DNA of 64,000 nucleotides from assembly GCA_017483575.1 (NCBI GenBank), contig JAFUWF010000018.1:1-64000 (forward strand), in the 5' to 3' direction. Made by a program: the position numbers and the translations under genes. The notes under the pieces were generated by a model. The model was not told the origin of the DNA. It saw nothing but the letters and a program-made list of their open reading frames with translations, and did no database searches. The stretch comes from Bacteroidales bacterium. GTDB taxonomy: Bacteria; Bacteroidota; Bacteroidia; Bacteroidales; P3. Below, one piece after another: positions 33,900 to 34,075 of this stretch (its first letter is position 1; the number at the start of each line of letters is the position of its first letter).

Positions 33900-34075
33900 C
33901 CCCCTACCAAACAGGTGCTTTATTCGACTGTTCTTATATAGTATACATATAGTATTCATATACTTCCCATATAGTTCTTATATACAGTATATGAATACTA
34001 TATGAGAAGTATATGAATACTATATGCATACTATATAACATGGGTCGGATTTGGGGGCTGATTGACAGGGGTTTG
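33900..34075. repeat. 11-mer inverted-repeat element, copy 3
   Basis: The core is 33931-34042: five 11-base units, AG, five inverted units (TATATGAATAC, TATATGAGAAG, TATATGAATAC, TATATGCATAC, TATATAACATG). The right flank GGGTCGGATTTGGGGGCTG is nearly the same as that of copy 4, and the left flank AAACAGGTGCTTTATTCGAC matches copy 2. Confidence 0.9.

Follow-up and report, generated by a model that had tools for sequence, protein, structure and literature searches.

Why does a long inverted array of 11-base units lie upstream of gyrB in this Bacteroidales genome, and why does the same array recur between other genes of the chromosome? The window (i.e., the whole 64,000-nucleotide stretch analyzed here) holds four copies of the repeat, referred to below as family 1, all of them found in the sequence where the initial annotation had placed them. 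Their cores, taken as TTCGAC through its inverse, lie at 2965..3091 (copy 1; minus strand), 21394..21520 (copy 2; plus strand), 33923..34049 (copy 3, the one upstream of gyrB; plus strand), and 57482..57597 (copy 4; minus strand).

Architecture and neighbors of the window copies

The cores of copies 1 to 3 are each 127 bases long (5 + 5 units), while that of copy 4 is 116 bases long (5 + 4 units), in agreement with the earlier description of five-unit arms with one unit fewer in copy 4. The split into 11-base units is exact, as described, and Tandem Repeats Finder independently gave a period of 11 for all four copies. The two-base AG/TG center that had been proposed does not hold; by symmetry, a single central base joins the arms. 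The outer flanks are conserved, as had been claimed, and they too step by 11 bases: the copy consensus, split by eye, reads CAAACAGGGGT CAAACAGGTGT TTTATTCGACT on the left and, in inverse, CAAACCCCTGT CAAACAGCCCC CAAATTCGACC at the right end. In copy 3, these conserved outer ends occupy 33890..33922 (left, with the 11-base step) and 34050..34082 (right), both on the plus strand and assigned from the consensus; in the outer flank of copy 4, Tandem Repeats Finder marked an 11-base tandem of CCTGTTTTTCC (57605..57639). The conserved ends stand in inverted orientation (CAAAC...TCAAACAG...ATTCGAC; consensus, by eye).

Copy 3 is flanked by gyrB (31823..33787; minus strand) and a DUF4835 gene, and the presence of dnaA (38053..39525; minus strand) about 4 kb away suggests that this copy is origin-proximal. 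The neighbor of copy 1 is a gene with a caspase-like peptidase C14 domain (1072-2838; minus strand). The claim that copy 4 lies between converging genes stands in one gene calling and fails in a cruder list of open reading frames, which has plus-strand frames on both sides. A different 11-base array in the window, TTGGTAGGGAG with an inverted arm (47612-47683), has an ABC transporter gene on one side and an M17 peptidase gene on the other, and arrays like it also occur in gaps of three relatives (G022, G009, and G089). Seven-base tandem repeats are frequent in the window too (e.g., 4393-4424, 41608-41655, and 53019-53050).

Family 1 across the host genome

A pattern representing the array ends matched the host genome (1.96 Mb in 30 contigs; 77.7% complete) 108 times, and its reversed control gave no match. 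The first 100 of the 108 matches contain 70 copies (66 taken with their flanks, plus the four window copies), i.e., about 70 in the genome, and copies with at least three mismatches at both ends may have been missed by the pattern. In family 1, each arm has five 11-base units (sometimes four), the arms face each other head to head, and the ends are conserved. Core length is 127 bases in 53 of the listed copies, 116 in 11, and 105 in 1; as these values cover 65 of the 70, length varies by whole units. Loss of the phase or of the flanks in copies elsewhere had been named beforehand as grounds for abandoning the family; both are kept genome-wide in these same 65 listed copies. Of the five off-length copies, two look internally deleted, another is truncated by a contig end, a fourth is broken, and for the fifth the search did not locate the right end.

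Genomic position and the RNA hairpin reading

The copies are intergenic, with a preference for divergent gene pairs: 61 copies had callable neighbors, and these were divergent in 24 cases, codirectional in 28, and convergent in 9. Relative to all neighboring gene pairs, the divergent share is larger (23 of 52 versus 108 of 901). When eight contigs were scanned with long array-free gaps (150 bp or more) as the control, divergent gaps made up 20 of the 43 with a step-11 array and 54 of the 241 controls (odds ratio, 3.0; P = 0.002). The latter is the fairer control; with it, the divergent excess is smaller but still clear.

The initial annotation had offered a long RNA or cruciform stem as one option, and the family could be read as a hairpin acting in transcripts (i.e., an ERIC- or BIME-like processing or stability element). 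ERIC, BIME, RUP, and Correia-type elements are multicopy intergenic palindromes of about 100 to 200 bp, as here; we know of none with a fixed short step, even spacing, or replacement in place by unrelated sequence. The stem is very stable: folded as single-stranded DNA with DNA parameters, copy 3 reached -43.2 kcal/mol, whereas 200 shuffled versions averaged -13.1 (z = -10.5) and none of them was as stable. Of the 3,339 stem cells in the 53 full-length copies, Watson-Crick pairs account for 2,902 (87%), G-U for 151, A-C for 65, and other combinations for 221, and two-sided changes occur at stem positions 22 (A-T, G-C, and T-A) and 33 (A-T and T-A). Such changes and the surplus of G-U over A-C cells favor pairing in RNA, but G-U accounts for 13 distinct pair types versus 14 for A-C, and the cell excess comes mostly from four stem columns common to many copies. 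Nor is the covariation proof of function, because arms repairing one another during replication would also produce matching changes. Orientation relative to codirectional genes is evenly divided (14:14 in 28 copies), 24 of the 61 copies lie between divergent genes, and arrays without a palindrome occur in other species and in a second family of the host, all of which argues against a hairpin in transcripts. No Rfam covariance model matches the copies at the curated threshold. We thus regard an RNA-level role as very unlikely: on orientation and position, the long stem loses support while the pairing counts remain mixed, and a simple terminator, doubted earlier, is disfavored on the same two grounds. 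The sole Rfam family matched in the window is Acido-Lenti-1 RNA, which lies elsewhere, with two matches above the curated threshold (30657-30704, minus strand; 30799-30844, plus strand).

Spacing along the chromosome

Among the matches listed, family-1 copies define 46 within-contig gaps with a mean of 21.6 kb and a minimum of 7.9 kb. No gap is shorter than 7.8 kb, against 14.5 under random placement, and the coefficient of variation (CV) is 0.43 versus 0.94 for random placement; none of 20,000 simulations reached the observed values. The evenness is unchanged when copies within 1 kb of contig ends are removed. Even spacing is also seen in a relative with a motif of its own (G097), where 20 gaps include none below 5 kb versus 6.6 expected (2 of 20,000 simulations); here, the first 100 of 137 motif matches were taken as 44 loci, and contigs were taken to end 5 kb beyond the last position. 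Step-11 arrays of any motif, pooled from five other species with arrays less than 1 kb apart merged, are mildly even (29 arrays; 24 gaps; G121, with a single array, gives no gap). Gaps under 7.8 kb numbered 2 versus 5.6 expected (401 of 10,000 simulations) and the CV was 0.66 (172 of 10,000), while the minimum gap of 2.2 kb was ordinary in this pooled set (3,211 of 10,000).

A second motif on one contig

With 70 listed copies, only one of them on the 213-kb contig C26 against 7.6 expected (a post hoc contrast, as the scarcity of family 1 is what drew attention to this contig), family 1 has the pattern of a chromosome-organizing site family of the Noc, SlmA, or MatP type, i.e., tens of sites, regionally nonuniform. 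The host carries a second, directional family (CATACTCTTCC CATCCTCCTAC ...) at 16 loci: 12 on C26, 2 on C13, 1 on C5, and 1 on C9. The search gave 20 matches at 17 places, of which C3:14166 (two mismatches) was set aside, and its reversed control gave 6 matches. On C13, family 1 is represented by one broken copy at the contig end. Along C26, the second family shows no short gaps versus 3.4 expected (100 of 10,000 simulations), with an unexceptional CV of 0.69 (2,017 of 10,000); the list of arrays used excludes a place at 38083 (three mismatches) and two additional starts inside arrays.

Two motifs alternate along one contig in another genome (G131), and the regional split may thus be specific to the host genome. 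As for C26 being an origin or terminus region, GC skew was uninformative, the few marker motifs searched did not occur on C26, and a dif-like sequence gave two weak matches only, neither of them on C26.

Shared positions and concerted change in a sister species

Among 60 relatives searched, a recognizably related family occurs only in G007, a member of the same genus, whose units are, for example, CGTTCTTATAT. By flank comparison, 16 of the 35 G007 loci fall in an intergenic gap that holds a copy in the host too. These correspond to 15 host loci, since one site is split between two G007 contig ends, and both flanks aligned for six of the 15. The comparison comprised 19 pairings, from which L079/L097 (67% over 291 bases) and both pairings of L119 were left out. 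Copy 4 is one further site common to the two species. In all 9 pairs that were testable out of the 16 (8 host loci), identity between orthologues (0.75 to 0.88) is lower than that to the best paralogue (0.89 to 1.00). Copies are closer to copies of their own species than to their orthologues, which, judged by sequence identity, is concerted evolution. The copy 2 gap of G007 contains no array, so single sites are dispensable. The locus set aside as L119 combines the surroundings of L082 and L083, host copies separated by about 12 kb, as if a rearrangement had taken place between two elements.

Step-11 arrays of unrelated sequence in relatives

The gap upstream of gyrB was taken from the 30 best-matching genomes of 120. 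Its best tandem step is 11 in 13 of the 30 genomes (host included) and 9 in one; in 1,500 shuffles, step 11 arose once and any step 7 times. In this comparison, the array of G139 has a score of only 13 and is possibly coding sequence, and G007 is scored on the element flank, as the array itself reads N. The units are unrelated in sequence (e.g., GACGGAGGTGA in G071, TGTTCnnCGGT in G128, AGTCGGAnnnn in G097, and a CTACCAACTCC-type unit in G022). For the gaps corresponding to copies 2 and 4, 20 relatives were chosen by hand from the same 30 genomes. The copy 2 gap has step 11 in 8 of the 20 and no other step. The copy 4 gap has no step-11 array in the 18 readable loci of relatives (20 loci from 19 genomes), with step 7 in four and step 12 in one; G007 does have the element there.

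Beyond these gaps, step-11 arrays occur in contigs of all six other genus members scanned, with only two weak ones in 100 kb of G147, and none were found in 277 kb from outside the genus (three further genera of the family plus two further families), which is a small sample. Motifs are replaced from species to species: three consecutive AGTCGGAnnnn units (at most one mismatch) matched 137 times in G097 and 21 times in G003, and none of the remaining 118 genomes exceeded 9 matches; 104 of the 120 genomes lacked any match, and the reversed control gave none except 3 in G018. The palindrome is not needed, as the 11-base step also occurs without it, with other sequence, in other species and in the second family of the host. 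The suggestion in the initial annotation that the units form a protein array site gains support from this persistence of the step where neither palindrome nor sequence is retained.

Tandem repeats can gain and lose whole units without selection, and the arrays might be neutral products of slippage for which 11 is one of several favored steps. Other steps are indeed frequent: 1.24 Mb of genus contigs contain 167 arrays of step 7, 47 of step 8, and 35 of step 9, versus 52 of step 11, and in the copy 4 gap other steps lead by 5 to 0. These other arrays behave differently, however. In the contigs of relatives, arrays of steps 7, 8, and 9 are clustered (short gaps, 58 versus 39.4, 22 versus 13.7, and 7 versus 4.1 expected, respectively), and many step-7 arrays lie inside called genes, whereas 50 of the 52 step-11 arrays lie outside called genes and favor divergent gaps. 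Step 11, moreover, leads other steps in two of the three gaps compared, by 13 genomes to 1 and by 8 to 0. Neutral slippage is, in our judgment, highly improbable.

Candidate role as protein-bound landmark sites

We observe an exact step, a preference for intergenic and especially divergent positions, even spacing in the host, positions shared between species, and motif replacement by species and, in the host, on one contig. The step, intergenic placement, spacing, and position tend to persist, while the sequence changes. This combination fits landmark sites read by an oligomerizing protein of evolving specificity, and our best reading, to which we give a probability of roughly 40%, is that the arrays are candidate protein-bound DNA sites that organize the chromosome. 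Each array comprises about 3 to 14 copies of a 5- to 7-base motif at 11-bp intervals, which places the motif on the same helix face each time; family 1 contains such an array twice, head to head. A putative oligomerizing DNA-binding protein would fill each array, and the roughly 70 arrays would serve as regularly placed anchors for nucleoid organization. If protein and motif changed together, the sequence would turn over while the step, spacing, and position were kept. Against the landmark reading stand the copy 4 gap, which is devoid of step 11 in relatives, the empty copy 2 gap of G007, the mild evenness of the pooled species, the unexceptional CV of the second family on C26, the post hoc nature of the C26 contrast, the alternating motifs of G131, the two weak arrays of G147, and the G-U excess.

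A bolder version, which we hold only tentatively and think doubtful, is that of a genus-wide lattice of protein-bound arrays whose identity would reside in the invariant 11-bp step (i.e., a helical turn, in underwound DNA) and not in the sequence. Array and protein would coevolve fast, with a motif for each species and host chromosome region and with inherited positions and spacing, as a counterpart of fast-evolving centromere satellites. Landmark site families are usually recognized by their sequence, and a search by sequence would miss systems such as this one, in which step, position, and spacing tend to be retained through sequence turnover. The landmark reading, if true, would make it possible to ask what specifies chromosome architecture and how a DNA-binding protein evolves together with its dozens of sites.

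Known site families provide partial parallels. About 70 Noc sites mark the Bacillus subtilis chromosome and are underrepresented at the terminus, while SlmA has 24 to 52 sites over one chromosome (PMC4726725). As far as the accessible text of that source describes them, these systems resemble the present one in having tens of sites per chromosome and one depleted region, and they differ from it in that their sites are short palindromic consensus sequences, not phased arrays, and in that their protein is known. The approximately 11-bp periodicity of bacterial genomes, presented in the available part of its description as a genome-wide nucleotide bias that in cyanobacteria concerns mainly coding regions (PMC4132750), is unlike the discrete arrays seen here.

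An alternative is that the arrays are operators of a global regulator that binds 11-bp direct repeats (e.g., an OmpR/PhoB-type response regulator) and that the family is its regulon. In Streptomyces coelicolor, PhoP binds PHO boxes, direct repeats of an 11-bp unit in which a 7-base part is conserved (PMC9019756), and the KfrA operator has five repeats of 9 bp, of which three point one way and two the opposite way (PMC7783346). From what the accessible text of these sources reports, the present arrays resemble PHO boxes in their 11-bp direct units and the KfrA operator in using both orientations within one array; the KfrA unit is 9 bp, unlike the 11 bp here, both known systems act at promoters, and a chromosome-wide even array is not described for either in that text. 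The exact 11-base step is that of an 11-bp direct repeat, and the preference for divergent pairs and the arrays upstream of gyrB in many species would suit operators. A regulon explains neither the even spacing nor the near-exclusive second motif on one contig, and 9 of the 61 copies lie between converging genes. We consider the operator reading unlikely.

The strongest rival of the landmark reading is a mobile, MITE-like element whose insertions are kept apart and whose arrays are transposase binding sites; we count it as possible, though on balance doubtful. Even spacing would then come from target immunity or from recombinational loss of close copies, and the shared positions would be insertions older than the species, homogenized by gene conversion. 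The high copy number, the intergenic placement, the conserved inverted ends, the identical copies in G007 (best paralogue identity, 1.00), and the presence of copy 2 in the host with no array in the G007 gap all favor such an element. So does the precedent of BrickBuilt in Porphyromonas gingivalis, a minisatellite inside a MITE (23-base unit; 19 copies) with a direct array between leader and tail, IS5-type-like ends, and duplications in three of four examinable copies (PMC4596501). Judged by the accessible portion of that publication, BrickBuilt is the nearest published element that we found: both are intergenic only, set tandem units in a flanked element, change length by whole units, and share loci (between strains in BrickBuilt). 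The 11-base unit, the inverted array, and the ends of family 1 are unlike the 23-base direct array and ends of BrickBuilt, and the even spacing and cross-species motif replacement seen here are not described for it in the same portion. On the other side, no target duplication was found: in 62 copies, the longest word common to both flanks averaged 6.02 bases versus 5.85 ± 0.14 for shuffled partners, and a search for duplications at a fixed offset gave no excess at any offset. The copies have no match in phage or plasmid collections, the palindrome is dispensable in other species and in the second family, with only the 11-base step in common, and unrelated motifs recur in the same gap. We accordingly keep a MITE as a rival and do not claim membership, as target duplication was not found, and we reject a phage or plasmid origin for want of a match in those collections. 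Should the mobile-element reading be true, the family would be strikingly evenly spaced for an element. In the open-access literature, we found no description of evenly spaced 11-base arrays; going by the accessible text of the sources above, each part of the landmark reading has a precedent (PHO boxes, KfrA, and Noc), while their combination was not found in that literature.

Other short-period arrays

One of the three further genera sampled, a sister genus represented by G187, carries palindromes with a 22-base period (i.e., twice 11), built on a motif around ACATATG, at five places in 60 kb (L225, 1335-1419, 13281-13364, and 19716-19801; L226, 5819-5905 and 9949-10037). Arrays of 10-base units, TATACCTTTT, were seen at many loci of two Bacteroidetes MAGs: AM_bin-0098 (L121, L122, L124, L126, L128, L137, L140, L148, L152, L153, and L157) and Umea2p3_bin-0931 (L123, L127, L143, and L145). 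In several cases, GATAATCA or GATAACCA lies no more than about 60 bases beyond the array.
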